A stretch of DNA of 64,000 bases from Pomacea canaliculata (lineage: Eukaryota; Mollusca; Gastropoda; Architaenioglossa; Ampullariidae), in assembly GCF_003073045.1 (NCBI RefSeq), contig NC_037603.1, forward strand, positions 13,026,192 to 13,090,191, read 5' to 3'. Below the pieces are notes generated by a model. It was not told where the DNA came from, did no database searches, and saw only the letters and a program-made list of their open reading frames with translations. How positions within the stretch are numbered: the stretch's first letter is position 1; the number at the start of each line of letters is the position of its first letter. This document shows positions 20,787 through 64,000 of the stretch, piece after piece. A program made the translations under genes and the position numbers.

Positions 20787-20997
20787 AGCTAACATGACGG
20801 CAGAGCAACAGCGGTCGTGAACCCCAGGCGGGCCGACAACCCCCGCAGCAGCAACATACAAGAGCCACAGCATCCTATCGATCGCCTCCCTTCTTACCAG
20901 CCTGCTTCCTGGCTGCCAGACCATCCCAGGCGCCCCGGCAACCACAGGAGGGACTGGGACCTGCGCCCGGCAGCACGAAGGTGTTTGAGGCCGCATC
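20787..20997 (+). promoter_or_regulatory. 5' UTR part of transporter exon, with a short upstream ORF
   Basis: TTCTTTTTCGTTTTGATTCCAG (ending 20786) is a good splice acceptor, so the start codon at 20998 probably lies in the second exon of the transcript. A 9-codon upstream ORF (20794-20820, stop included) precedes the main ATG. The first, untranslated exon was not identified. Confidence 0.5.
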
Positions 20998-23900
20998 ATG
21001 GGGAAGGGAGCACACAACGTACAGCAGAAGAAGAGTGACGAGGGCAAGGAGGTGGAACCTCCGGATGGAGGGTGGGGATGGGTGGTGGTCTTCTCGTCCT
21101 TCCTCATCCACGTCATCGCCGATGGCGTCGTCTACTCGTTCGGCGTCTTTCTGATCGTCTTCGTGGAGTACTTCCACAGCGGACGTGGCGAAACCGCGTG
21201 GATCGGGGCACTTCAGCCGGCCGTCACCTTCACCGTTGGTGAGTGCTTGTTTCCTGTCTAGCGATGAATGGAAGAAAAGAAAAAAAAAAAAAAAAAAAAA
21301 AACAGACAAAGTGACTGATGACAGCACGCTGGACGGTGGAATGAAAAATGCAATCAATAGCTCGATCGTTTGAATGTCGGTCATAAAGAATTTACCTGGG
21401 AAGACACATCTAGTGTACTGACTTAGAGAGAAAAAAAGGAGAAATAACTAGTTCTTGAAAAGTAGACTTCTGGGAGGAGAAAGGTCAGAGGTGGAGGTGT
21501 GCCAATCGTACGGTCTGAAAACTGTCTATTATTATTCAATGTCTGTCTTAGCGTTGGGAGACCTTCAGTCCCAGGAAACAGGATATTTCTCCCAGGAAAC
21601 GAGGATGAAATATCCTGTTTCTGCAGTGACAGGGATAAACATAGTAAAGAAATGTTTTGCGGAAACCTCACACAGTTCATTAAGCTGCTTCCATTTTAGA
21701 TATCAATAAAGTCACTTGAACGAAATATTGTCATATTATGTCCTCAACGGACCCTCATGGACATGACTTCGGATATCCTTAAATAAACATGTAAAGATGA
21801 ATATTAATGTTGAGATCACTGGCAACCCGGTGCACATCTGGTGGATAGTACAGATTAAACAAATAGATAATCATTAATAAATAAATAAAGCAGTCATGCT
21901 GAGCAAACGTCGAATCGTTGTGCAACAGTTTTACATCCATTTAACCGTTGAACACATGATCGGGATAGAAGGGTTTCCGCACGACTGCTCACCCCAGTCA
22001 GCTGCAGCCACAGATAAACGGCTTTACGCTGACTGACGCTGTGTCATTGACCCGTGACCCAGTCCAGGGAGGACAAAATGTAGGGCATGCGTACTTTGAA
22101 CGGACGGACGTACACGCAGACGCACGCTCTTCTTTCTGATGCGCACACGCACGCATACCCACTAACACAAGCAAATATACACAAAAACTCACCCTGCAAA
22201 CAGCACACACAAACATAAACATGTGTACACTCACATACACTCACACACAAACACACACACACGTTTTTGTCACACACACACACACACGCACACACTCCCT
22301 CACACACACACGTAAACTTTATCTGTCCCTCTCACTTGCAAACTGTTGAAAAGAATCAGGGGATATTTTTATTTTATTTTTTTATTTATTTTCTTGGGGG
22401 GAGGTGCAACTTGAATACTTAATTGCCAGCCTGCTTGCCCTGATCGATGGGGTCGATAGACCAGCGCGGCTTGCGCTGCAGGATGGTGGCTGTCATCGCC
22501 CGCTGGAGTGTGATAATTGCATAAAAAGGACAATGACAGTGAGGACACTGGTCTGATGAGATTTTGATAACAGAGACAGTCAATTCTGTCCAGTTCGTCT
22601 TTCGGGTTAGCATAAATTTTAACACACTTACATCCTTATAACAATAATAACAAGAAAAAGATTGTTAGCTGTAATAGCCAAAGTCAGGCTTACCACAATT
22701 TACAAACATAAAACATAGGATTTCTGTGTGAAAGTAAGGGGACTGGTGTCACAAACGATTTATTTAAGCAACAAGTTACATGGTTTCCCCATTAAAATAA
22801 TCCCCATGGAGTGTAATGCACTTTTCCATCCCACGTCGTGCTTCTCTGTAGTCTTGGAAGGATTCTGAGATGCTTCCTCAGCTTGGTCGTTACAGGATTG
22901 ACTATATCCACGCCTTCAAAACGGGTTTTCTTGATTACCACCTTGGGCTTGGGGAATATAAAGTTACATGGGTGAATTGGGAGGTTGTTTTATTACAGTG
23001 ATGTTCTCGGCCAGGAACTGCCGGATGCTCAGGACGGTGTGAGCAGGTGAATTGTCATGATGAAGCAGCCTGTCCTGCCATAACCCTCGTTTCTTCTCTC
23101 GCACTGAGTGAAGCAAATGGCGAGGATACCCTTGTAGACTTGCTGATTGACCGAGATAGTATGTTAGATGATAACAAATCCACTTATCCCTCTGTCGTCC
23201 ATAGCACACACAGCACACCCTGTCCTGTTACCCTCCAGACCTCGTACCTCCGTGCGATGCTGTTGTGAGTTTCAGGAAAGTATATGATCTCTAAGACGAC
23301 TTTATGGCGAACTTTACGATGATGAGTTTGAACAGTAATTAGTCTGTAATCTGCCACGTCACCCAGAGTGTCATGCTTGAGATGCTGTGCAGGTCCATTG
23401 GCCAGTGCGCTGACCAACAGATACGGATGCCGGGTGGTGACCATCGTTGGCGCCGTCATCGGCAGCCTCGGCTTCATCCTCAGCGTCTTCGCGCCTAACC
23501 TCTACTTCCTGTACTTCTCCTCGGGCATAATGGCAGGTGGCTCCACTTCCAGTTTCTTTTAGTTTCGTAGTTTAATTTTCATCGTCTTCATCGATGATTT
23601 TATTGTCTTTTTCATTGAAGTCATTAATATTTTCCTTGTTTTGATTATTTCATCAGTCGTCATTTTGTCACTTTTGTTTTTGCGTAGCATTTGTCATGGC
23701 GATCATTTCTTCTTCCTTTGTTTAATTCGTTTTTCCGAATCATTACCATTCATGATAATGAACTGTTGATGTTACTATAAATCTAATAGTTATATTTTTC
23801 ACTGGAAACATTTTATGTGACATTACAAGACATTAAGTGTAACCTGGATGATAAGCTGTTACATGAAAGTCCTAAAATCTAAGCTAAGAATCTTTAGCCA

Positions 23901-26900
23901 AAAATTTGTCCATATTTTTCCGGTTAAAATGGCATTTTGTGATAGTTAATGCCTTATATTTAAAACCTCAAACAAAGCTGAGTGCCTTAACTATCAACGA
24001 GCTAGAGTTGATAACCCTTCTACAACGCCACGAGTACTCAACCCCTATTCTTCTCTTGTCTTTTTTTCTCCCTCCTTCCCAATCATCCCCACTCTCAGGG
24101 CTCGGGTTCGGGCTCATCTATCTGCCGGCCATCGTCATCGTGGCTCAGTACTTCGAGAAGCGCCGAGCCTTCGCCACGGGGCTCGCTGTGTGTGGTTCAG
24201 GGTTCGGCACCTTCATCCTGGCGCCCCTCACAGAATACCTGCTGGAGGTCTACGGGTGGCGCGGCACCATGCTGATCGTGGGTGGCGTCCTCTTGAATGC
24301 CATCGTCTGCGGGGCGGTGTTCAGGCCGTTGCTAGCCCCGCAGCGTTCCGTCGACGCTGCCGCGGAAGCGACGGGCGGAGGCGACGCGGACCCGCCGCGC
24401 GACGAATGCGGGGATGCGGCGAAGGATGGAGTGCAGAGTGTTCACACCCTGGACCAGGAACTGGCTTCGGCGGAGAAGTGCAACAGCCACCTCAGCGACG
24501 TGCCACCTGCGGAGAGAGACGCTTTATTGAGTAAACTCAACGTCGATCTTGAGCTGGTGACGCTGGAGAGTATAGAAGGTGAGTGGCAGGGTATTATGGG
24601 AACAACACTTCTTCGCCAAGCCCTAAGGATAGTCGTTACTCCCGAGGCAGAGGTTAGGAGATCAAGGGTGACCATGTTGTTCTCGTTATAAAACTGTGAT
24701 CCGCGGATGTTGCTGCATTACCCTGGATGTATTATAAAGTTGCGTGGAGGAAAAAAGATACCGGGGGGACAAGAATGTGAACTTATCTCCATCCTCTATG
24801 ACCATAAACCTCAATATTTAATATCTCAACACCGTCAGGGTTTCAAAATTATACATCAGTTTTGAAATGCTTGTTTTGGGGTCATTCCTAAATGTTAGGC
24901 TTACCTCTTTAACGTTCCACCATTTTTCATCCTGTCAATAAATTAGATGGATATGAGTTCGTATTGATGTTTTTGAATAATTTTAGTTTTGTTTTTTTTC
25001 CCCTTAAAATATATTTAAGAGGGATCACAGCTATGCTAGTTGACCTCATCTGTGTGAACAGAAAACTTCCAATCTCAGAAAATGAAATTCAGACTTAAAG
25101 TGATTGAGAATCATCCGCTACTTTTTCTGTATTTTCCCACTGAGCAGAGATCACCTCAGACAGCGACCTACAGAGCGACCCCAAGGTCTTCGTCGATGTC
25201 GGGACGGTGCGGGCCACGGAGGGTCACAGCAACTTCCTCCTCCGCGCCCCCAAGTTCCACGATCCCCGGATCATCAGCAGCCAGCAGCACCTGGCCCTCA
25301 ACCGCGGCGACCAGCCTCCGCCCACGTTAGCCGACCTCGCGAGGTCAGACGGGGCGATACACTACATGAACGGACAGCCAGCAGCTCGAGGGGAGGCCAA
25401 GAATCTGGTTCTCAGGCAATTGTCCACCCCGGCCAACCCTACCCCCGTGGTGGCTGCGGGGGTCGTGCGTCCAGTGGGTAGCCGCAAGGACGTTTTCTAC
25501 AGCGGCAGCCTGCAGAACATTCCCATGTACCGCTCCCACCACGACTTGTACATCACCAGCATCACTTCTATCCCCGAGGTAAGATAATGAATCATACTGT
25601 ACACCTCATTTAAAAAAAAAAAAAAATTCCAAAAAACTCCTAATAAAAAAAAAAACTACAATATATAGATCATGTTAATATTGGTATTCACATTTTTTTG
25701 GATTAAAAAAATCGGAATATAAATTTTCTTGGTGGACAGTTATGGTTTCGAGCAAGCCATCGCTACCAGAGTGAACTTTGATCCCATAATGATTTCTCCT
25801 TAAGAGTTCACGCCCTAAATAACTTTTGAAGATTCCAGACTGGGACTACGCATGCGCAGGCCGGCTTCTAACTGGCGTTTTTTCTCATACCCGATGAATG
25901 TAAACAGACATTATTGAGTCATTGAAACTTTTCGTTTCGTGGCATGGGGTAATGTCCATCATTTACAACCTGCAACCTTGGCATCCCTCTGAAAAATTTC
26001 TGCTGACATGCACCGATATTTACATACCTCGATGTAGGTTAGCAGGTGCTGCACGTGTTCACGTGTAAACATCGTGCAAAGTTTGGCACATCTGCCACAA
26101 ACACACTTTTAGCGTCTGGAGCCCTTCATGCATGATTGTCTTTTCTCACACTTTTTTTTTCCCGCGCTCATCTCCATTTACATTCATTTCCTGTAATTTA
26201 CAAAATAAATTGTAAGGGGAAAAACGTCTCTTACGCTTTAATATATTATTAAAACAGGTTTTTCCAAGTTCATCGCGTTGGTGGTATGGAAAGAAAAGGG
26301 AGGCAAGCAAATAAACTTGTTCACGTTCCTAAAGATACCAAGGCTTGCCTCCCTTGGGTAGTAACGCGATGCGGAAAGCGTGGACAGGGTGTTTGGCGAA
26401 AGGAGGCAGGCCTCAGCAGGTTTAAAGCTGTTTGCAAAAATGGTAGAGGGTTTAAAATGTGCTTATGTCATGCTGTCGTCTCAGGTGGACTGGAGAAACA
26501 CAAAAATGAGAATTTTGTCGAGTGTAGAAACTGCAACGAGCACTTAATGACACTGTTTAATGAAGGACAGTAAAGGAAACGCTTTAATAAATGAAAGGAG
26601 CTAATGAAGGAAAATATAATAAAATTTTAATTACACTTATGTCTAACATGAACATTTCTAATACACTTTAACTGAAGTGGTCTATTTGTTATTTAGTTGT
26701 ATTATGGAGGACGGTTGATGATAGAAAGTGTGTGTGTGTCGAATGACAAGTTTCACCTGTTCCTGCCTCATTTGCATTTGCAGATGGAAGAAGAAATTAA
26801 GGAGGAGGAGAAGTGCTGCGGGATGACAGTGTCCACCGAGTTCCGCGAAGCCTTCCGGGAAATGCTGTCGTTTGCTTTGCTAAAGAACCCGGTCTTCCTT

Positions 26901-28244
26901 ATGTTCGCCATCTCCAACTTCCTCACCTCCATCGGCTTCAACATGCCTTTCATATTTCTGCCGGACAGAGCCAAACTAGCAGGTAGAACAAGCTTCCTTC
27001 TCCTTCACCTGTATCGAATACAGCAATACAATAAAATAACTTTTTGAATGATGATCTTAGATGTAGTCGGAAACAAGCGACATTTATGTCACGTGACTCG
27101 TTCTTGTGTAGGAATCGACGAGACGAAGGCTGCCTGGCTGCTGTCCGCCATCGGCATTTCCAACACCGTGGGCCGCGTGGTGTTCGGGTACGTGGGCGAC
27201 ATGCAGTGGGTGGACCGCCTGATGCTGTACAACACAGCGCTGGTTATCTGCGGGGTGGCCACGGCCCTCAGCCCCTTCGTCGGCGGCAACTACGAACTGC
27301 TCGTGACCTATGCCGTGGTCTTTGGAATATTCATAGGTGAGAGGTCGCGTCGCCCAGGTTAATTGGTGCCAGCCAGTTCATTCAGCTGTGACATTATTGT
27401 TAACTTTCGATCTCTTGCTTGATGTGAGCGAACCGTATTCATGCGTGAAGTCAGTGCGCATGTCTCGATACTGACCAGGCTGTTGTTGTTTTTCCAGGTG
27501 TATACGTGTCACTGACCTCAGTCGTTCTGGTGGACTTGCTGGGCATTGAACTGCTGACCAACTCTTTTGGACTTCTGCTGCTTTTCCAGGGTGCTGCCAC
27601 CTTTGTTGGACCACCTATCGCTGGTAAATAGGATATATCCTGCATTTGCTAGCACGAATGCGCGCGCGCACACATATATATATATTGTATATAATTTATA
27701 TATATAATGAGAGAGAAAGAGAAAAAGACATAGGATAAATATGTGTTAAATCGTTATAAATATTGGTACATTGTTTGAAGCTTTGATCCACACGGACAAA
27801 TATGTTTATTGTTGTTGTTGTTATTTGTTGTTGTTGTTGTTATTGTAGTATTATTATTATTATTATTATTATTACACACCACTTGTGTATGTATATACAG
27901 TGTCTTTATTGCATTCCTAAAATTTCTATTCTTGTTCCCTACTGTATGTTCAAATACATGTTTTCTTCCCCCACCTGCCAGGTTGGTTATGTGACTGGAC
28001 CGGAAGTTACGACATCTCCTTCAACGTCATGGGCGTCATGATCGCCATCAGCGGAGCCATGTTGTTTTTCCTGCGCTGCGTGCAGCGGCGCTACGAGCGA
28101 AACACGCCGCCGCAGGAGAAGGCCCACCAGATCGAGATGGGCAAGCTACAGACCACCATCTCCACCTCTGCTGCCGAAACCCACGCCTTACCTGAAGAGG
28201 AGGGAATGCTCACCTCCGACCCTAAGCACGAGAAGGCTGTGTAG
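20998..28244 (+). CDS. Monocarboxylate transporter-like protein (SLC16 family), 8 coding exons
   Basis: Exons 20998-21238, 23393-23536, 24099-24578, 25148-25578, 26784-26982, 27112-27336, 27498-27623 and 27982-28244 all have GT-AG borders and join into 2109 bases: 702 residues with no internal stop. The protein is a 12-helix major-facilitator transporter of the plasma membrane. The family signature DGGWGW is at residues 23-28, at the start of helix 1. YFEKRRAFATGLAVCGSG near residue 150 matches the conserved helix 4-5 region, and LVDLLGIELLTNSFGLLLLF in exon 7 and the GWLCDWTGSYD start of exon 8 match helices 10-11. About 250 residues between helices 6 and 7 (exons 3-5, roughly residues 207-455) form a charged cytoplasmic loop, much longer than in vertebrate MCT1, as in some insect MCTs. 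The helix-8 arginine is kept (NTVGRV), but the aspartate four residues before it in MCT1 is asparagine. Substrate is therefore not predictable. Confidence 0.92.
22720..23300 (-). mobile_element. Decayed mariner-type transposase fragment in transporter intron 1
   Basis: On the minus strand the frame ending near 22964 reads RLLHHDNSPAHTVLSIRQFL and then ITVIKQPPNSP, the mariner signature around the second catalytic aspartate (HHDNAPAHT...). A further stretch (about 22960-22785) reads roughly as the transposase C-terminus (RFEGVD, LRKHLRILP, RRGMEKCI, GDYFNGE) but is broken from the first by a stop. The third catalytic segment is damaged, so the element cannot move on its own. It lies wholly within the 2.15-kb first intron of the transporter, in reverse orientation. 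Inverted terminal repeats were not resolved, so the ends are approximate. Confidence 0.75.
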
Positions 28245-32682: not shown

Positions 32683-35464
32683 ATGACTGCAGAGAAACAG
32701 CAACATATATACAAGACCCACAGCATCCTATACATCGCCTCCCTTCTTACCAGTCGATTCCTGGCTACCAATCTATCCCGGGTACCAGCCAACGATAACA
32801 GGGACCGGAACCTGCACCCGACAGTGTCAGAAACCTCCTCATGGAGCAGGTGATGCATGACGAGGGCGGCGATGTCGGGGATGGGTGGGGATGCGTGGTG
32901 TACTCGTCGTTCCTCATCCACGTCATCGTTGGCAGCGTCAACTACTTTTTCCACACCTTCCTCGTCTTCTTTCTGGAGGACTTCCACGATGGACCTAGTG
33001 AGACTGAGTTTATTTGGGAACTGCAGCCGAACTTCGTCTACATCATCGGTGAGATCTTGCTTTTGGTCTGACAGGCGCGAACGAACACACACACATACAC
33101 ACTTATCTCTCTCATTCTTTAGCTCTCGTGCACACTTGTAACTATCAGCTGAAGATGTTTAGCAACAATCTTATGATCTCAACCAAATATCTACATGCCC
33201 GGAGTGTCCGCTTGATGCTGTGCAGGTCCAGTGGCCGCAGCGCTGACCAACAAGTACGGGTGTCGGGTGGTGACCACCGCTGGCGCCCTCATCAGTGGTT
33301 TCAGCTTCATCTTCAGCTTCTTGTATGCACACAGTCTCTACTTCATGTACTTCGCCTTGTGTGTCATGGCAGGTGACTCAGCTTTCAATTTCTTTGAGTA
33401 TTGCAGTTTAATTTTCGTCGTCTTCGTCGTCGTCTTTAGTGGCGTCCTTCCTTGTCTTTCTCATCGGTATCATAAATATTTTCCTTGTTTTGATTTATTC
33501 CATCAATCGTTATTTAGTCACATTTTTGTTTTGTGTAGCATTTGTCGTGGCAAAATTATTTCTACTTCAGTGGTTTGTAGATTTCTTTATATTCATTTTC
33601 ATTCTCTAATTATTATATTTATTAAGTTGCAATACAAAAATCTTAGCCAAACTTGTCTTTCTTCTTCTTACCCTTCTTCTCACCCTCACTCCCACCCATC
33701 AGGGATCGGGTTCGGGCTCATCTACCTGCCAGCCATCGTCATCGTGGCTCAGTACTTCGAGAAGCGCCGAGCCTTCACCACGGGGCTCGCTGTATGCGGG
33801 TCAGGGGTCGGCCCCTTTGTCCAAGCGCTGCTCACCGAACACCTGTTGAAGGTCTCCGCAAGGCGCAGCGCCATACTCGTCATGGGCGGCATCTTCTGGT
33901 CGTCATCGTCTGCGGGGTGTTGTTCAGTCCACCGGAAGTGCCTCGACGCCCAGTTGTGGCAGTTACAGGGGAGAACATAGAAGGTGAGATGCTGGATATC
34001 TGTACACACTTATCATGTTAAGTCAAGCAAAGTCGCTAACCCTGAGGAAATCAAGGGTAAGAGTTGTCTCTCTGTAGTTATAAAATGTTTATAAAAATGT
34101 TTCGTTCTCGTCTGCAGGTGGAAGAAGACATAGAGGAAGAGCGTTGCTCTCTTTGCTAAAGAACCAGGTCTTCCTCGTGTTCGCCATCTCCAACTTCCTC
34201 ATCTTCATTGACTTGACCATGCTTTTCACACTTCCATGGAACAAAGCCATACAGACAGGTACCACAGACCCCCTTCTCCTCCCCCGTTCTTTTACATACA
34301 GGCTGTAATAGACAGGTACAACAGACTCCCTTCTCCTTCCCCATTCTTTTACATACATCGAATACAGCAATGCAATGACATTCCTCACCATTTGAGTTGT
34401 ATTTCGAAATAAACCACCTTAACTTCTATTACCCTGTGACTTGACCCGTTCAGGTTCAGGAATGTGGACTACCCCGCTTGTATACGTCATTTCCTGCGTG
34501 GTGTTCGGGTATGTGTCCGACAAGCAGTGGGTGGACCGCCTGATGCTGTATAACACAGTGCTGATCATCTGCGGGGTGGCCACGGCCCTCATCCCCCTCA
34601 TCGGCGGCAAACTTCTTGTGACCTTTCCCCTAGCTTGTGGAATATGCATAGGTGAGAGGTCGCAGTAACCAACACACATAAACACAGATAAAATTATGTA
34701 CATGTTACCCGGCTTTGCCAAAGTTAATATCTGCCGGCCTGTTCATTCGACTGTGACGGTATTGTCAACTTTCTATGTCGAGTGAATCGTATTCATGCAT
34801 GAAGTCAGCGATCGTGTCTCGATACTGACCAGGCTGTCTTTTTTCCAGGTGCATACGAGACACTTACCTCAGTCTTGTTGGTGGACTTGCTGGGCATCGA
34901 ACTGCTGCCCAGTTCTTTGGGATTTCTGATGCTCTTCCAGGGTGCTGCTCACGTTATTGGACAACGTGTCTCTGGTAAAGAGGCAGATGAATATGCATTT
35001 GCACTTGCACGCACATATATAATATATAATATGAAAAGAAAAAATATTGATAATGTAATATATAATATATATCTGACCTCTATCCAATTATTATTATTAT
35101 TAACGCCCTTTGCGTTTGTCTATACAGAGTCTCTTCCTTTACCTCATTGCTCAATTTTTGCCCGTGTTTTCTATTTATCTTGTATGTTAAAATATATTTT
35201 TCTCCTCCTACCACCAGATTGGTTGCCCGTCTTGAAGGGGGTTTCGAGATTTACTTCGTCATCAAGTGCGCGACGATCGCCATCAGCGGCGCCATGTTGT
35301 TTGTCCTGAGCTGCGAGCGAAGCACGCCCTCGGAGAGGAGGGTCCATCAGATCGAGATGGGCAAGCTACAGATCACCATCTCCACCTCTGCTGCCAAAAC
35401 CTACTCTTTACCTGAAGAGGAGGGAATGCTCACCTCCGACCCTGCGCACCACAAGGCTGTATAG
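32683..35464 (+). pseudogene. Degenerate tandem copy of the monocarboxylate transporter
   Basis: Regions matching transporter exons are found in order: 32841-33048, 33226-33372, 33703-33983, 34118-34258, 34460-34651, 34849-34974 and 35218-35464. Introns also align (for example 23630-23700 with 33470-33550), so this is a DNA-level duplication, not a retrocopy. Lesions: exon 4 (most of the long loop) is absent; exon 3 has a net one-base loss near 33895, leading to a stop at 33978-33980; exon 5 lacks about 60 bases; exon 6 lacks 27-33 bases; exon 8 has a net one-base loss within 35218-35270, leading to a stop near 35300. The signature DGGWGW has decayed to GDGWGC, and the 5' UTR acceptor TTCCAG is TTCCAA. 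If translated it would give a truncated protein of roughly 210 residues ending after helix 5. Poly(A) signals lie at 35727-35741. Very likely a pseudogene. Confidence 0.88.
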
Positions 35465-39995: not shown

Positions 39996-40830
39996 GATAA
40001 AATCGTCTTTACGGACCACACAGCTCACAAGGCCTTGGTGAATGAGTTTTTAAAATTATGCGACATGAGTTTTCACATTCGGGTGGATGCAGAAAGCTTG
40101 TGTATATCCCTCCGCCATCAGGGCCGAGCATCGCCCATCAAGTTCTCAGACGTTCTCATAGCGAGGTGGTGGTGACAAGATGGCGCCGCAGACAGTCCCA
40201 TGATGCTCGATGCCAGTCTGACAGCGCCATTGCTGTGACGAGGTGGGACCGCAGTCGACCTGCTGACGCCGGCAGCAAATGTCTTGGATGCAAAGAGGAC
40301 AAAGAACATCGGCGACACCGTGAACAGGAGTGTGTTCTAGAGCTGAATCGGGGGAATTTCGAAGCGAAGGAGAATGTTGACGACAACGGCAACGATGACA
40401 GATGTGTCGTCAAGACAACAACAGGACATTCCCCTTCGGTTTTTGACAAGCTGGTCTGCATTTTGAAACAATTCCAACCTCATCTTTTCCTCACCCAGTA
40501 GCAGAGGGGCGGAAGTCATGTTTACCTTGACTACTCGAGATGACAAAGAAAAAGGAGTCACGTGGACATCAAAAACTGGCAAAGGTGAAAAAATAAATGT
40601 TGTAAGCAAAGCTACTTTTGATATTAGCAAGACGAAGGTAAAGGAGAAGAAATTGAGAATAAATTTAAAACGGGATTCGGTGGATTTCTGTAGGGAGGAA
40701 ACAACACCCGGTCATGGCGAGTGCCGGGGATCTCAGGACGTGAGAGTGACTAACCGAGGGATGAATGGTGTGGTTTCAGCATCTGTGTTCTCAGAAACTT
40801 TTAAGAGATCGACAGATGTTGACGTCATGT
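39996..40830 (+). CDS. Unresolved N-terminal exon(s) of the TIR-STING gene
   Basis: After the TTGTTGCAG acceptor (39995) the sequence stays open in one frame to 40175 (start of exon: DKIVFTDHTAHKALVNEF). A second frame runs 40058-40501 and a third 40467-40832. The third can begin at a CTTTTCCTCACCCAG acceptor (ending 40498) and ends at a donor GTGAGTA (40831) in phase 2. Joining that phase to an acceptor CCCCCAG ending at 41132 would enter the TIR frame correctly (codon for Ile, then SEGASP). No domain is recognised in any of the three frames; the later part is rich in Lys, Asp and Glu. The frame changes may reflect unseen introns, indels or decay. These may be N-terminal extension exons or may not be coding. 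Confidence 0.35.
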
Positions 40831-41121
40831 GAGTATTATCTTTGAATTGTGTTCGATCAGGCAATCGATCAATTAATCATAATCGATCATATCGCTCCAT
40901 CATCAATTATCACTATCTGATCGTAAGCATCGTCTATCAATAATCCTCAATCCTCCGCCCATGAATCAGTGAGTGGCTTGATGGGTAGAGTACTTCTCCT
41001 CCACGCTGTCTGTACTCATATATCCCCCCCCCCTTACTCTTCATCAGCTTCCCCACCTACCCCTCGCTCCTCAATCCACCTTCACACACTCTACATCTCT
41101 CTTCCCATGTCTTCTGCGCAG

Positions 41122-41505
41122 CGTGCCCCCAGAAGCGAGGGAGCCTCACCGTTGCCTAGCACCACCGGAGTCCCGCCCACCCCGGCCGTGCAGGCGCAGC
41201 ATGACGTGTACATCGCGCATGCGCGGGAGGACCTGCAGGTGGCCACGCGGCTGCTGCGCGTGATGGAGGAGCGAGGGTTCTACTGCTACATGTGCGAACG
41301 AGACTTCCCCGTGGGCGACTGCATCAGTGACGTCATCACCGACGCGGTGCGAGCCTCGCGACATGTCGTGGCCGTCGTGTCCAAGAGCTTCCTCTCCGAA
41401 GACTGGTATGACGTCATGTTGGTGTTGGGGGAGGGGAGGAGTAGGATGAGTAGAATCAGAGTCAGCAGAATCTGGTGTGTATCTGGATGTGGCACTTGCT
41501 TACAC

Positions 41506-41572
<67 letters not shown>

Positions 41573-41796
41573 GGATTGGCACGGAGTGCATAAAATTACT
41601 TTTCTGTTTTCACCTCAGGGGCATGTTCAAGCTGCATGTAAGTCTGAGCCGGATGTACGAAACAAACAGAGCTATTCTACTTCCGTGCTGGTGGACGTGT
41701 GTGAAAAGGACGTTCCAAGCGTTTTACGTCACCTTAGCTACGTGGACATGCGCAGTGACCCAAACTACGTTGACAAACTTATTTCGATGCTACAAG
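41122..41796 (+). other. TIR domain-coding exons
   Basis: Box 1 reads HDVYIAHAREDL (from 41200) and the BB loop reads ERDFPVGDCISDVI (41296-41337). VVAVVSKSFLSEDW matches the beta-D strand and the 'SEW' segment of Toll-like receptors. Exon 2 continues GMFKLHVSLSRMYETNRAILLP, then after the slip VLVDV and VPSVLRHLSYVD, as in the end of a TLR-type TIR. The residue four after the conserved Trp, glutamate in NAD-cleaving TIRs and most TLRs, is lysine (41629-41631). The slip is between CCG at 41683-41685 and the GTG starting at 41685. The intron between the two exons contains (GTT)n and (GAT)n repeats. Confidence 0.88.
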
Positions 41797-43146
41797 GTGG
41801 GAGACATTTTGTAATATTTTTATATGTAGATACAAAAAGCTGATCGACGCTCTTTAGCAGAAGTGTATGTTTTTTTCATCTTCAAGCATATTTTTAAAAA
41901 AATACTGTTGCATGTTCACTATTTGCATACTCATATAGTTTACTGACTGTGCAGGACCAGAGGTCAGGGTGAATGAACTTTTACCTGTTGGGAATCTCTC
42001 TTACGGCATCGTCTACAATTACTACCTGGGCTACCTGAGGTTCGTGCTGCCAGGTGAGAATTTGTGATAAATCCCACACAATTTCCTTGCTGTGATTTTC
42101 AGCACCTGGGCAGTAAGACGAGAGCCTCAAGTTCCCCGTAAACACGTGACACAATCTCAGGATTTTGTTTATTATAACTCAGTAAGACTTCCGCGTTCTC
42201 ACCTGTGAATACGCTGAGTCATTATCATGTAGAAGCAAATAATTGTGCAACTCCCTGTCTCTTCTGAAAGTAACTTCTTTCAACAGGAAGCAGAAAATAT
42301 TTCTATAAACCTGCTACTTTCCAGTGGATTTTTTATTTCCTTTTTTTCGGTTCGCATGACCTGACAAGTCTCAGGTAAACTTCAAATAATTTTTATTTCC
42401 TGAAAAATTCCCCTCACCTCGAAGTCGTCCGCAGTTAATATTTTGTAACCAGGAGCAAAGACAAGGCACGAGGTGCATTTTATTTAAAGTGCAGGTTCGA
42501 ACCTAAATGACTATGTTTACACGTGAACACTCCTTTCTTTCTTTCTCTCAGTCCTTCTTCCGTCTCTAATTATATAATTAATCCTTTTTTATTCCCTTTG
42601 TTTGCTCTGACATCATTTGTTTCAATACTTTTTTTCATTGATATTGTTTTTTCCTTTATTTCTCTCTTTTGTTTTATCTCTGTAAACTCGCCGACTCATT
42701 CTCTTTCAGTCTTGTAGTTCTCGACGACGATAGACAACTCTTCTCATAGAAAGGCACTAACGATTAAATAATCATCTCCCTTTGACTATGTTCTTTACAA
42801 CATTTTAAGTCTTTATTTGAAGTGAGTTTTCTCGGCTTTCATAGATTGCAATTAAAAAAGGAGAATGTCGAGAAATGTAATTAAAGACAAGTGCATACAC
42901 CTATGCCCCTCTATGCTCGCTCACACGCACACGCACATATCATTGGAATGGAGAGTGATGTCCCTTCACCCAACTGGCTAAAGGTTGCTCTCCCTTCGCT
43001 CTTCGTATTTCCGTTGATCTGCGTGAAGTTTTGTGTCTAATGTTCATTAGTACATCTGTTGTGATATTTGCTAAGTTCCTTTTGTGTCTATGTTTGTTTG
43101 TTGTTTTTTTTTTTTGTTTGTTTGTTTTTTGTTTTGTTTTGTTGTT

Positions 43147-43188
<42 letters not shown>

Positions 43189-43315
43189 TTTTTTGACTCA
43201 TTTGTCTGCATGGTTGTTTATCCTTCCATCCTTCGTATTCTCTCCATGTCTCCTACTTGTCTTAAGCTCAGAGCATGTTCCTTCGGGAGTGCCATTATGC
43301 GCTGTATAAAACACA

Positions 43316-43351
<36 letters not shown>

Positions 43352-44571
43352 CCTCCTCCTCCTCCTCCTCCTCCTCCTTCTTCTCATCCTCATCCTCATC
43401 ATCATCATCATCACCACTCAGCTTGCCCTAAACGTCTCTCTTTTTCTCTCCCCTGACAGGAATCCAGCAAAGGATCGACAGATGGTGCCAGAAGCACAGC
43501 AACACGCAGTGCTTCGACGCACGCATGTCCCGGAAGTTCTACATCCTAGTTCCGGTCAGCTGCTACTGTCCTCACACCCTGGTGGACGCGGGCTGCGCCA
43601 TCTCCTTCAGTGGTCACGTGGACGACCTGGAGCTGTCCAGGGCAGGCAGCCTGCGCCGCGTGTACAGACACACCGTGTGGAGCATCACCAAACCCAACGG
43701 GCAGGTAAGCTTGGTTGCCATGGCCGCCAATACTTCAACGAACAGAATTTAAAAAGATTCGTGTGAGCCGTGTGTGTGTAGTGGTGGTGGGGATGATGAT
43801 GGTGGTACGTGGATAGGCGCGTGCATATTTATTTATAGAAAGATACTATACCCTCCATCAGTTCATCAGTGTTGTGACCTATTCCATGCCAGGTGCTTCA
43901 CTTTGTGGGTGAGTACCCGAGCTGCCTCAACACCTTGTACCAGATGGAGATGATCAGAAACACGGGGCTGGACTCCAGTGAGAGGCAGAGACAGAGGGAG
44001 GAGTTCGTGGCCAGACTGAGGGCGCTCCTGGCCAGCAATGACCACACGGACAGCGTTCGTGTTGTGGACTATCGGGGTCAGCACTTTGCTCCTACTTTTC
44101 TTTGCTGTTGAAGCTCTTGAAAAATAAATGTTTAAATAATGGTAAGAGGAACTAAATATGTAAATATATGTGTTTTTAACCGTAAATCCTACTTTTGGGA
44201 AAAAATGTCTCACTGTTTACTAATTTCATGACATGCAGACGCTGAGAAGCGTTTGTTGTTGTTGTTGCTGTTGTTTGGTTGGTTGGTTGTTTGTTTGTTT
44301 GGTTGGTTGGTTGTTTGTTGGTTGTTTGTTGGTTGTTTGTTGGTTGTTTGTTGTTTGTTGTTGGTTGGTTGGTGGTTGGTTCGTTGGTTGGTTGGCTGTT
44401 GGTTGGTTGGTTGGTTGGTTTTTTATTCAAAACGTTAAGCAGGTTCTGGAAATACTATCTTTTACAGATAAAGACAGTTTTGGAAACATCATTTCTCTCT
44501 CACAAGTCCTCGCTCCAGTTATCGAGGAAGACAGACTTCCACCCAGTGAGAGCCAGCAGACAGTGAGCTGA
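41122..44571 (+). CDS. TIR-STING fusion protein (cyclic-dinucleotide receptor with N-terminal TIR), apparent frameshift
   Basis: Six exons are supported: 41122-41405, 41619-41796, 41955-42053, 43460-43704, 43893-44076 and 44468-44571 (stop TGA). All have GT-AG borders and compatible phases. The first two encode a TIR domain and the last four a STING ligand-binding domain, with no transmembrane segment between them. Vertebrate STING has four N-terminal helices in the ER membrane; here TIR takes their place, as in the known oyster TIR-STING proteins and bacterial TIR-STING. The expected role is sensing of cyclic dinucleotides (2'3'-cGAMP, c-di-GMP or relatives) in innate immunity, with signalling through TIR assembly. 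The frame slips by one base near 41685, so as given the reading frame is broken. A start codon at 41107 (MSSAQRAP) or splicing from the upstream exons are both possible; the start is not settled. AATAAA at 45057-45062 is a candidate poly(A) signal. Confidence 0.9.
41507..41572 (+). repeat. (GTT)n-(GAT)n compound microsatellite
   Basis: About 11 GTT units followed directly by about 10 GAT units, in the intron between the two TIR exons. Confidence 0.95.
43098..43192 (+). repeat. T-rich (TTTG)n and (GTT)n microsatellite
   Basis: A T-rich run is followed by about 15 GTT units, within the intron between STING exons 1 and 2. Confidence 0.9.
43314..43422 (+). repeat. (ATC)n-(CTC)n compound microsatellite
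   Basis: Repeated CAT/ATC units pass into CTC/TCC units and back to ATC, ending about 35 bases before the acceptor of the next STING exon. Confidence 0.95.
44252..44422 (+). repeat. Interrupted (TTGG/TTTG)n microsatellite
   Basis: Interspersed TTGG, TTTG and GTT units fill most of the last intron of the TIR-STING gene, ending about 45 bases before the final exon. Confidence 0.9.
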
Positions 44572-46551
44572 CTTTTGTCTGTGGGGACGAGGCGTAGAGA
44601 GACTTGTGTGGGCATTCCTTGTTACGCCAGTCAGGACATCAGCAACGAATCTTCTCAAAGCTCAACTGGATCATTCCTAGTTTGGTTGTTTTTGTCATTT
44701 CAGGATTTTTGCGAGACAATTTTTTAAAAATCTGGTATATTTTGCACTCGCTTGCCACAAGACAATCTAATCTTTAATCAGTTACTGTAAATTATTTAAG
44801 TATTTATTAAAAAAAATAATCATTTTTTATGTAGAAGAAGTACTGTAATCTTATGGTCAAAGGGGGAGTGAAGGCTACAGCCCTTTTTTCCTTTCGGAAC
44901 CATTTTAAAAAATTTTTATTGAGCGGTATCAACTGCAGTTGCTTTAACCACATAAACAGTATTAATCATTGATGAATATTCTTATTGTCCTATTTTGTGT
45001 CAATATATATTTATTTTACACAAGCTGTTATCACCAGATAGATAAATGTGAAGGGAAATAAACTGTCCTATAATTCAATTAACAGTGTAGTTAATTAACC
45101 ATCGAACAAGGCACCGAATGTGTGGTAGAGTTTGTGTTGTAATCATTAAATGGCAAATCCTCACTGACTAATGGCTGACTAATGGCATCCCGACTCCTAT
45201 TAGAGAGTAAGTCAGGGTATATTAGCCCAAAGAACGACTTTTATCATGGGAAAGATGGGTAGTGGGAACGGGGTGTGCTAAGTCTATTAAAGGATTTGTA
45301 AACTCAGTTGTGTTGCTTTAATTAGTATGACTATACCAGTCGCTGTCTTTATTTTTCCTTCTGTCTCCCTCTTTTCCTTCCCTTCCTTTTCCTATTATTT
45401 TTGTCAATCCACTCTGTCTATCTTTATCTATCCGAACAGGGCGGCCTATTTACAGGAGTTTAAAAAATTCTAAAAAATTTATTTTATGATGCCGAAAATA
45501 ATCTTTGTGGTGTCAATGTGTGTGTATGTGAAACTAAGAGATTGCAGAGAGAGAGAGAGAGTGCGTGTGTGTGCGCATGTGTCCGTTGGTGTGTGTGCGA
45601 ACCTGTCTTTGAGTCTGTTCTTTGTCGCTTACATCTTTACCTTGTGGTGATTCAATGAGAGTTGTCCTTTCTTGTTCGTTCATGACTTCAATCTGGCAAA
45701 GAAAGTGAGTAAATAAACCCATTTGATTCTGAAGCAGATTAAAAAGCCTCCTTGTTCTGTGTTAAACCTTTCATCTTCTGTTTCCTTTTTCCTCGAGTGC
45801 TTATTGTCGCAACACGTCGACGCCATCTCAAAGCCACGCTGCACTACTGCGCAATCTTTCACCGGAAGTCGCCAGTCGTCGTCCAGAGGCGACCGACACA
45901 AAAAGCATTTCGCCTCCTGATGCTTAACGCACACGCGTCCTCCGCTCTGCGCATGACCACACACGTGACTCCTGGACCGACGCACGTATGGGTACTTTAT
46001 GACTGCAACAAGACCACTTTACGGCCGAAACAAGACTCCAAAATGGCTGGCCACCAATCTTAAACAAACCCTGATTGATCTTTGATGACCCCCACCACCG
46101 CTGTCTTGTCCCAGGGCGCCGGGTCCTCGATGCCCTGAAGAATTCTAGATTTCAAGATAACGACAAAGTCGATGAAAAATCAGCCTTGGGCGCGAGAACA
46201 CGATGTTTGCTCGTCTATCGCGCACTTGAGAATGGGACAGCTTTTGCAAATACGAGTCGATAGATTGGAAACAGATAATGACACGCTCTCGGTCGCGCTC
46301 GGTCTGAGGGGACAGATCGAGTTAAGAACTGGACGAGGCCTTTCAGTACCTCCTACTTCCTGGCCTGGACTCTGTCCTTGTTCCGCTTCACTGATTTCAC
46401 TTATTTTTAAAGGCACGATTTCGCTCAAGTGTGGTTGTGAGGCGACGGGCAGCAAAATACACATTGCTCGATGAAGGGAGATAATGTGCTTGTAGAAACC
46501 ACGAACCGGAAAGGGTCTTCGCGAGCCTTTGTTGTCACATGCAGAGAGCGA
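44572..46551. other. 3' flank of TIR-STING and non-coding DNA
   Basis: AATAAA at 45057-45062 is the best poly(A) signal for the TIR-STING transcript. A CpG-richer stretch at 45780-46040 holds a TCACCGGAAGT ETS-type motif near 45857 and could be a promoter, but no exon was recognised. Confidence 0.4.
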
Positions 46552-62523: not shown

Positions 62524-63171
62524 TTAATACACAATACCGTTGCAGCCCCTCACGTTGCCCCCCATTCTAATTTCATGCTCCCGCGCTTTCAGTCTCAGTG
62601 ACGCAATGCTGGAACTGCGTCGGTCATCCGGGGGCGAGGACGACGTCACGGTCCCAGCCTGTGACGTCACAGGAGGCGGAGGGGGCTGTGCGGACACGGG
62701 AGAGGAAAGGTCAACGTACGTCTCCCGCGCCTTGGCCGCCGATGACGTCATGCTGGCCAGCAGGTGCTGGAAGGAGCCGGGAGGAGGAGCCGGGATGCTA
62801 AGGTGAGTCAGAGGCCCGCGCATGCTCACTCCGAATGGTCCCACCGCCGGCGAGGTTGCAGCCGCCATGCTGAGCGTTAACGGCGAGCACAGGGCCGGGT
62901 TGAAGGTTGTCATAGGTGACGTCATACCGTAACGTGACATCAGCGTGCTCTCGTAGGTCTTGAGGAGGAGGTCGGAATATGACGGGTGACCTCCGGCGGC
63001 TGCGGCTGCTGCTGCAGCAGCAACTGCCGCTGCGGATGACGCTGCCGACTGCGGACCCACCACTCCTCGCGTCACCAAGTTCAAGGTGTTGCTGTAAGGG
63101 TTGTACGGGTGTCCTTGACCTCCGACTTTCTCCTTCTTCCGCCATTTGGCACGTCGGTTTTGAAACCACAC
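62524..63171 (-). CDS. Last coding exon of an Aristaless-type homeobox gene
   Basis: The minus-strand exon starts right after a CTTCCAG acceptor (63172) and encodes 215 residues before TAA at 62524-62526. The first 14, VWFQNRRAKWRKKE, are homeodomain positions 47-60, with W48, F49, Q50, N51 and R53 present. An intron between positions 46 and 47 is typical of Paired-class homeoboxes. KVGGQGHPYNPY directly after matches Drosophila Aristaless (KVGPQSHPYNPY). A polyalanine tract follows near 62991-63041. Near the C-terminus, SSSIASLRLKAREHEIRM (62563-62616) is the OAR motif. The product is a nuclear DNA-binding transcription factor that patterns appendages and head structures in insects. In molluscs an aristaless-like gene has been linked to shell formation; this is known for the family, not seen here. 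Upstream exons, with the rest of the homeodomain, lie beyond 64000. Confidence 0.92.
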   Translation of the reverse strand: MWFQNRRAKWRKKEKVGGQGHPYNPYSNTLNLVTRGVVGPQSAASSAAAVAAAAAAAAAGGHPSYSDLLLKTYESTLMSRYGMTSPMTTFNPALCSPLTLSMAAATSPAVGPFGVSMRGPLTHLSIPAPPPGSFQHLLASMTSSAAKARETYVDLSSPVSAQPPPPPVTSQAGTVTSSSPPDDRRSSSIASLRLKAREHEIRMGGNVRGCNGIVY

Positions 63172-64000
63172 CTGGAAGACAGAGAACAATACGTGAATGT
63201 ATTTAAGAAAGAAAAGAAATTGCTGCTTACTAAGTTTCTGTTACCTGGACTGGAATTTATCCTGAGGTTGTACGTTTTCCTTTACCCCCACATCTCACCT
63301 GGGACGCCTTAGCAAACCAAAGTGATTGCTAGCGATTTTTTTCTTGCCCTTTTAAAAAAAATGGATAACAGGTGCTATATCATTTTTATTCTTTCTCCAT
63401 TTACTTCATTATCACGAATCCACATATCTCGCTGTTCCACCCAACCATTTGAAATTTTCTACCAATCCTATTGTCAATACTTTCCCAGAGAAAAAAAAAA
63501 AAGAAAGAGAACAAGAGAGAAAAAAAAATAACGACAACATTTCCCCACTCTGCTTCCCACATCAAGCATCCCCCCAACCCAACCCCGCTAAAAAAATAAA
63601 AATATAAAAAAAATTAGATCGTTGAGATTTGCAAAGCTAGTCGGGACGGTTAAATTTGGTTTTCCACTGACATGTTGGCATTTCAATGAAAAGTTACCCG
63701 TGTTGGGTGTAGTTTAACGACGGCGCGTGACCCCACCATGCACACACCTCCGGGAGGGTTCCCGCACACCCTGGCTGTTAGCACACCTTTTCACTTGAAT
63801 CAACACTTGCGCTCAAGCGCTTGTCTGTGATAATATGCCTGCTCAAATCATCTGCCGATAACATCGCACGCGCACTTTATATCAATTAGCAGCTTCTGTC
63901 TGTTTACCCTCTTCGCTCCGAGACGCAGGCCTCTTAAAATGAACTGCCTGCCTTCCAGAAACCTCGCTTTTGGAGAGAGAGAGAAAGAAAAAAAAACTAT
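63172..64000 (-). other. Intron of the Aristaless-type gene (incomplete)
   Basis: No homeodomain N-terminal exon was found between the acceptor at 63172 and the window edge, so this is taken to be intron. It is A-rich with poly(A)-like stretches at 63490-63530 and 63590-63612. Confidence 0.6.

Follow-up and report, generated by a model that had tools for sequence, protein, structure and literature searches.

The locus examined here raises the question of whether the apple snail Pomacea canaliculata, a caenogastropod, carries a gene in which a TIR domain is fused to a STING ligand-binding domain, and whether such a fusion is the one known from oysters. In animal TM-STINGs, transmembrane helices stand in place of the TIR domain. 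Among animals, TIR-STING has been described in oysters; the accessible part of PMC10732462 calls this animal form rare and recent and treats it as convergent with the bacterial fusion. STING was reported absent from heterobranch gastropods in the accessible part of PMC9334734, and no gastropod TIR-STING was found in the published literature surveyed, which consisted of freely readable papers available in part.

The window (the whole stretch of DNA analyzed, 64 kb) contains, on the + strand at 41107-44571, a STING ligand-binding domain preceded by a TIR domain of animal type. The introns are GT..AG throughout, and the following features were read:

41107..41405, + strand: exon 1, N-terminus and opening part of the TIR domain, with its GT donor at 41406
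41619..41796 (178 bases), + strand: exon 2, remainder of the TIR domain, split between two frames
41685..41687, + strand: frame-change site of the TIR homology (best-scoring switch; exon 2 one base out of phase)
41748..41750, + strand: ATG starting the deposited NCBI protein P0001, past the frame change
41955..42053, + strand: exon 3, LLPVGNL-containing linker, then the first part of the STING ligand-binding domain
43460..43704, + strand: exon 4, STING ligand-binding domain with the Arg232/Arg238/Tyr240 equivalents
43893..44076, + strand: exon 5, STING ligand-binding domain with the Glu260/Thr267 equivalents
44468..44571, + strand: exon 6, C-terminus and TGA stop
45057..45062, + strand: AATAAA, candidate poly(A) signal 3' of the stop, read from the sequence

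Exon 1 starts with the ATG at 41107 if it is the first coding exon; an acceptor before 41122 or before 41133 would be the alternatives. An open frame at 40467-40829 (+), with a donor GT at 40829 (GTGAGT), is a possible upstream TIR-STING exon; its phase fits an acceptor before 41133, and its residues gave no Pfam match at E 0.1, so the upstream exon is unproven. Rfam and tRNA scans of the whole window gave no matches. Elsewhere in the window, tandem major facilitator transporter genes lie at 20989-28241 (+) and 32841-35461 (+) (MFS_1, 8.4e-17, on 23888-24688); by eye they are monocarboxylate-transporter-like, and the second copy carries deletions as well as a broken phase near 33.9 kb. At 62527-63240 (-) lies the final exon of a homeobox gene of paired-like type, with an OAR motif (1.9e-8) and a homeodomain end that scored under the Pfam cut-off.

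For comparison with Pfam and the PDB, the joined snail protein was read with X at the frame change. The first-pass annotation had named the gene a TIR-STING fusion, with the TIR domain first, in a non-bivalve genome, and these points held; both domains lie in the interval it gave, on the + strand. The Pfam model STING_LBD matched at E 1.8e-35 (122 bits, cut-off 27), so that the fusion does not founder on a missing STING match, and TIR_2 and TIR matched at 5.6e-17 and 8.2e-10. The best PDB match was the oyster TIR-STING 6wt6 (4.1e-59, top of 104 sequences at <=1e-3, with the best 60 of the 104 listed), and the host is a gastropod. The first part of the TIR domain alone matched TIR_2 at 2.7e-12, and exon 1 alone, which is contiguous letters with no join, had 6wt6 as its top match at 3.8e-11. 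Chance matches are excluded for both TIR and STING_LBD at this locus, and the fusion is real as to its domains and gene layout.

The exon junction at 41796/41955 lies exactly where it had been placed. The splice from exon 2 to exon 3 is in phase and is made in P0001, the sole protein found for the locus in a search of a 5.8 billion-protein collection. All 226 residues of this deposited protein ('stimulator of interferon genes protein-like [Pomacea canaliculata]') are identical to the locus. P0001 is annotated as STING only and has the 16 last residues of the TIR region joined to STING. It begins past a frame break inside exon 2, and the TIR domain is thereby hidden in the public annotation. 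That TIR and STING belong here to two separate, adjoining genes is very unlikely: the frame change does cut off most of the TIR domain from STING, but the end of the TIR domain lies in exon 2 and is spliced in phase to STING, P0001 makes the same join, and oyster proteins carry it within one chain.

The six exons had been described as phase-compatible, which fails at one place: with 2 bases left over from exon 1, exon 2 is out of phase with exon 3. Apart from this single break in exon 2, all exons are open and the splice sites intact, and the phases agree through exon 6 once exon 2 is in its second frame. Compared with oyster TIR-STING, the TIR homology stays in one frame as far as ..YETNRAILLP and resumes in another at VLVDVCEKD.., with the best switch at 41685-41687. 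Splice alternatives were enumerated by pairing GT/GC donors at 41330-41479 with AG acceptors at 41540-41699 and by allowing further introns within exon 2; within these ranges, 82 single-intron joins and 17 joins with an extra intron were open. Scored against oyster TIR-STING, the best open join reached 266 vs 294 for the frame-broken reading, and the open join that keeps the normal acceptor and takes the next usable donor reached 254. Alternative splicing was rejected as a cure for the break, since every open join keeps the TIR homology worse than the broken reading does.

The break may be an assembly error, an allele, or a fixed loss of the TIR domain. According to the accessible part of PMC6129957, the assembly was built from PacBio reads and corrected by Pilon '-fix bases', 652x Illumina was sequenced, and genome heterozygosity is 1-2%. 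After such correction, a residual indel error is less likely. The phase break of the second transporter copy was considered as proof of poor sequence and set aside: that copy also carries other deletions relative to the first, and may therefore be decaying. If the break in exon 2 were real and fixed, the snail TIR would be lost, the locus would yield a soluble 226-residue STING only, or decay, and the TIR exons would be remnants. This course of events is rather unlikely. It fits the presence of the break in an assembly corrected by deep Illumina data, the STING-only P0001, the phase-broken state of the adjoining transporter copy, and the Lys found in place of the catalytic Glu of the TIR (see below), which is consistent with relaxed constraint. 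It fits poorly with a single break in about 370 codons, with intact splice sites, and with a TIR that, beyond the break, can still be aligned to the oyster one residue by residue. In our judgement, the gene is probably intact and the break a sequence error or an allele.

In a BLASTP comparison of snail and oyster, 99/300 residues were identical, and the alignment was ungapped from residue 39 to residue 202, across the TIR-STING junction; since no gap occurs there, the TIR-to-STING spacing is equal in the two. The snail has LLPVGNL at the junction, as does every oyster row spanning it (P0006, an isoform without the junction stretch, was left out of this judgement). Oyster TIR-STINGs (C. gigas 6wt6/6wt7; CgSTING, accessible part of PMC8218723; P0003-P0007 from Crassostrea virginica, Saccostrea, and Ostrea) are like the snail protein in domain order, spacing, and linker motif, as well as in the lack of a membrane segment and in the pocket residues. 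They differ from it in sequence (33% identity), in the TIR Glu, which is Lys in the snail, in the phase break of the snail assembly, and in a C-terminal tail longer than the snail's.

A profile search with snail and oyster queries returned 11 proteins from 7484 candidates: P0001, one protein from Crassostrea virginica, three from Saccostrea echinata, one each from S. cucullata and Ostrea edulis, and four others. Of these four, one was 98% identical to the C. gigas query along the whole query and one was 100% identical along 22% of it; the other two were chiton TLR-like proteins that matched through TIR. A further protein search gave 7 proteins, all among the 11. Outside oysters, TIR-STING was found in these protein searches in P. 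canaliculata only, and no TIR-STING of another gastropod and no TM-STING appeared; the seeds were shared 5-residue words and one search scored the best 7999 candidates, which makes this weak evidence. On the best reading, the apple snail gene would be an addition to the known oyster-type TIR-STING family, as its gastropod member.

In the STING tree, the snail grouped with the oyster TIR-STINGs at 99/97, and at 94/92 when the linker columns were removed; TM-STING was represented there by only 4 rows, of which none is known to come from a mollusc, and the tree gave long-branch warnings. A grouping of the snail with 8ydn alone was rejected (p-AU 0.008). The snail TIR grouped with the oyster TIRs at moderate support only, 88/90 (17 rows) and 90/69 (34 rows), both unstarred and with long-branch warnings. 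P0007, P0008, and P0009 were removed from the TIR set, and P0006, P0008, and P0009 from the STING set, as their domains were incomplete. Of 20 TIR paralogues fetched, L022, L029, and L037 (<80 residues) were dropped, and the larger TIR tree used 26 paralogues out of 63 genome TIR matches with E no higher than 1; two of the 63 are exons of the TIR-STING gene itself. A STING tree with both oyster and bacterial TIR-STINGs had been proposed; its oyster part gave the grouping above, and bacterial TIR-STING rows were absent from both trees.

The shared linker and equal spacing, together with the tree groupings, make it likely from sequence comparison that the oyster and snail TIR-STINGs derive from one shared fusion. 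An independent fusion, in which the snail joined its own TIR to STING apart from oysters, is decidedly unlikely. By identity, the snail TIR is no nearer to oyster TIRs (25-31%) than to several of the snail's own TLR-type TIRs (23-31%), its grouping among 9 snail TIR paralogues was not rejected (p-AU 0.07), and the protein-collection searches found no TIR-STING of other gastropods; on the other side, snail and oyster junctions have equal spacing and LLPVGNL in common, and both the STING and the TIR part group with oyster TIR-STING. A homologous fusion in a gastropod would have originated before the bivalve-gastropod split. The expectation that a further animal example would help to place the fusion is thereby strengthened, as the sequence points to an origin common with oyster TIR-STING.

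The likeness to bacterial CBASS systems, also put forward at first, stands for the architecture. Bacterial TIR-STING such as SfSTING likewise has TIR joined to STING, and a ligand-driven oligomer would be expected in both (PMC9402430, accessible part). SfSTING, however, is a bacterial operon gene with an active NADase TIR, whereas the snail gene bears introns, lies on a 19.4-Mb chromosome, and is not a bacterial gene beside a CD-NTase. Its best matches are animal, and convergence has been published (PMC10732462, accessible part). Gain of a bacterial TIR-STING by horizontal transfer would account for the domain order, which is that of the bacterial proteins in the accessible part of PMC9402430, and is extremely improbable for a gene of six exons on a snail chromosome whose best-matching structures are animal.

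The genome (440,159,624 bases, 24 contigs) was searched for a second STING, and none was found by Pfam STING_LBD (1 match from 3 candidates, the locus itself), by the snail STING part (4 exons at the locus and one match at E 2.64), or by a TM-STING fragment (2 matches, both at the locus). These searches go exon by exon, and a divergent gene could therefore be missed. Separate snail TIR genes with Thr or Ala for the Glu (L010, L015, and L032) were observed at 3.2 Mb of the same chromosome (C14). Mab-21 family matches were found on C3 and C8, and matches to the Mab-21 C-terminal domain on C8 (one), C3 (two), and C9 (two). Three of the loci with Mab-21_C (L042 at C8:6.55 Mb, L045 and L046 at C9:20.39 and 20.42 Mb) are putative cGAS-like enzymes and possible makers of a STING ligand.

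The lack of a transmembrane region, as claimed, agrees with the hydropathy of the protein: the top 19-residue Kyte-Doolittle mean was 1.31, below transmembrane strength, vs 2.10 in a transporter exon of the window, and we conclude from this that there is no membrane segment. The N-terminal transmembrane helices of animal TM-STINGs were not found. The snail protein is like TM-STINGs (PDB 8ydn, 4f5d) in its STING ligand-binding domain, at about 27-32% identity, and unlike them in its linker and in having no such helices. Eleven residues, which we take to be those of the pocket for cyclic-dinucleotide binding, were compared with the mammalian row; columns Tyr163, Gly166, Tyr167, Arg232, Arg238, Tyr240, Glu260, and Thr267 are the same (8/11), and columns 162, 263, and 264 differ. 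Arg238 and the stacking Tyr are among the STING pocket residues in the accessible part of PMC9980059. By these residues, the snail protein is a predicted cyclic-dinucleotide receptor. A structure model of P0001 with 6 oyster rows (mean pLDDT 66, pTM 0.67) was too low in confidence to be used as an argument.

In the snail TIR, the column of the catalytic Glu of NADase TIRs holds Lys. Glu occupies it in 27/34 aligned TIR rows (two of the 27 poorly aligned), including 5/5 oyster rows, and AbTIR has Glu at the aligned place. In bacterial TIR-STING, the TIRs become active NADases when packed by STING filaments (PMC9402430, accessible part). The snail TIR-STING protein would act as a soluble dimer whose STING lid would be shut by a cyclic dinucleotide from a cGAS-like enzyme; the STING dimers would then pack into an oligomer, drawing the TIR domains together. 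Because the Glu is missing, the clustered TIRs would most likely recruit TIR adaptors rather than destroy NAD. Given an intact protein, such a recruiting role has about an even chance.

A role of the gene in immunity is what we infer. In the accessible part of PMC8218723, haemocytes given poly(I:C) show a rise of CgSTING, the C. gigas TIR-STING; when CgSTING is knocked down, TBK1, two IRFs, and an interferon-like gene are lowered, and the ligand-binding part of CgSTING is reported to bind dsRNA and dsDNA. Taken together, the reading that we prefer, at a probability of roughly 0.6, is that the STING gene of the snail is an oyster-type TIR-STING from a single fusion before the split, encoding a receptor for cyclic dinucleotides that is soluble and uses its TIR to recruit partners, not to cleave NAD, and that the break is a local sequence error or an allele. 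A broader account is more tentative: TIR-STING would be old in molluscs, formed once before the bivalve-gastropod split and later lost or mis-annotated in most lineages, and in the snail it would be the only STING found, with the NADase Glu given up, signaling through TIR partners, and the TIR hidden by annotation.

The locus illustrates that one phase break can strip a domain from public annotation. A caenogastropod STING that is a TIR fusion bears on where gastropods retained or lost the pathway. If the fusion is homologous, the apple snail would offer a second lineage, one in which no other STING was found, for asking what animal TIR-STING does.
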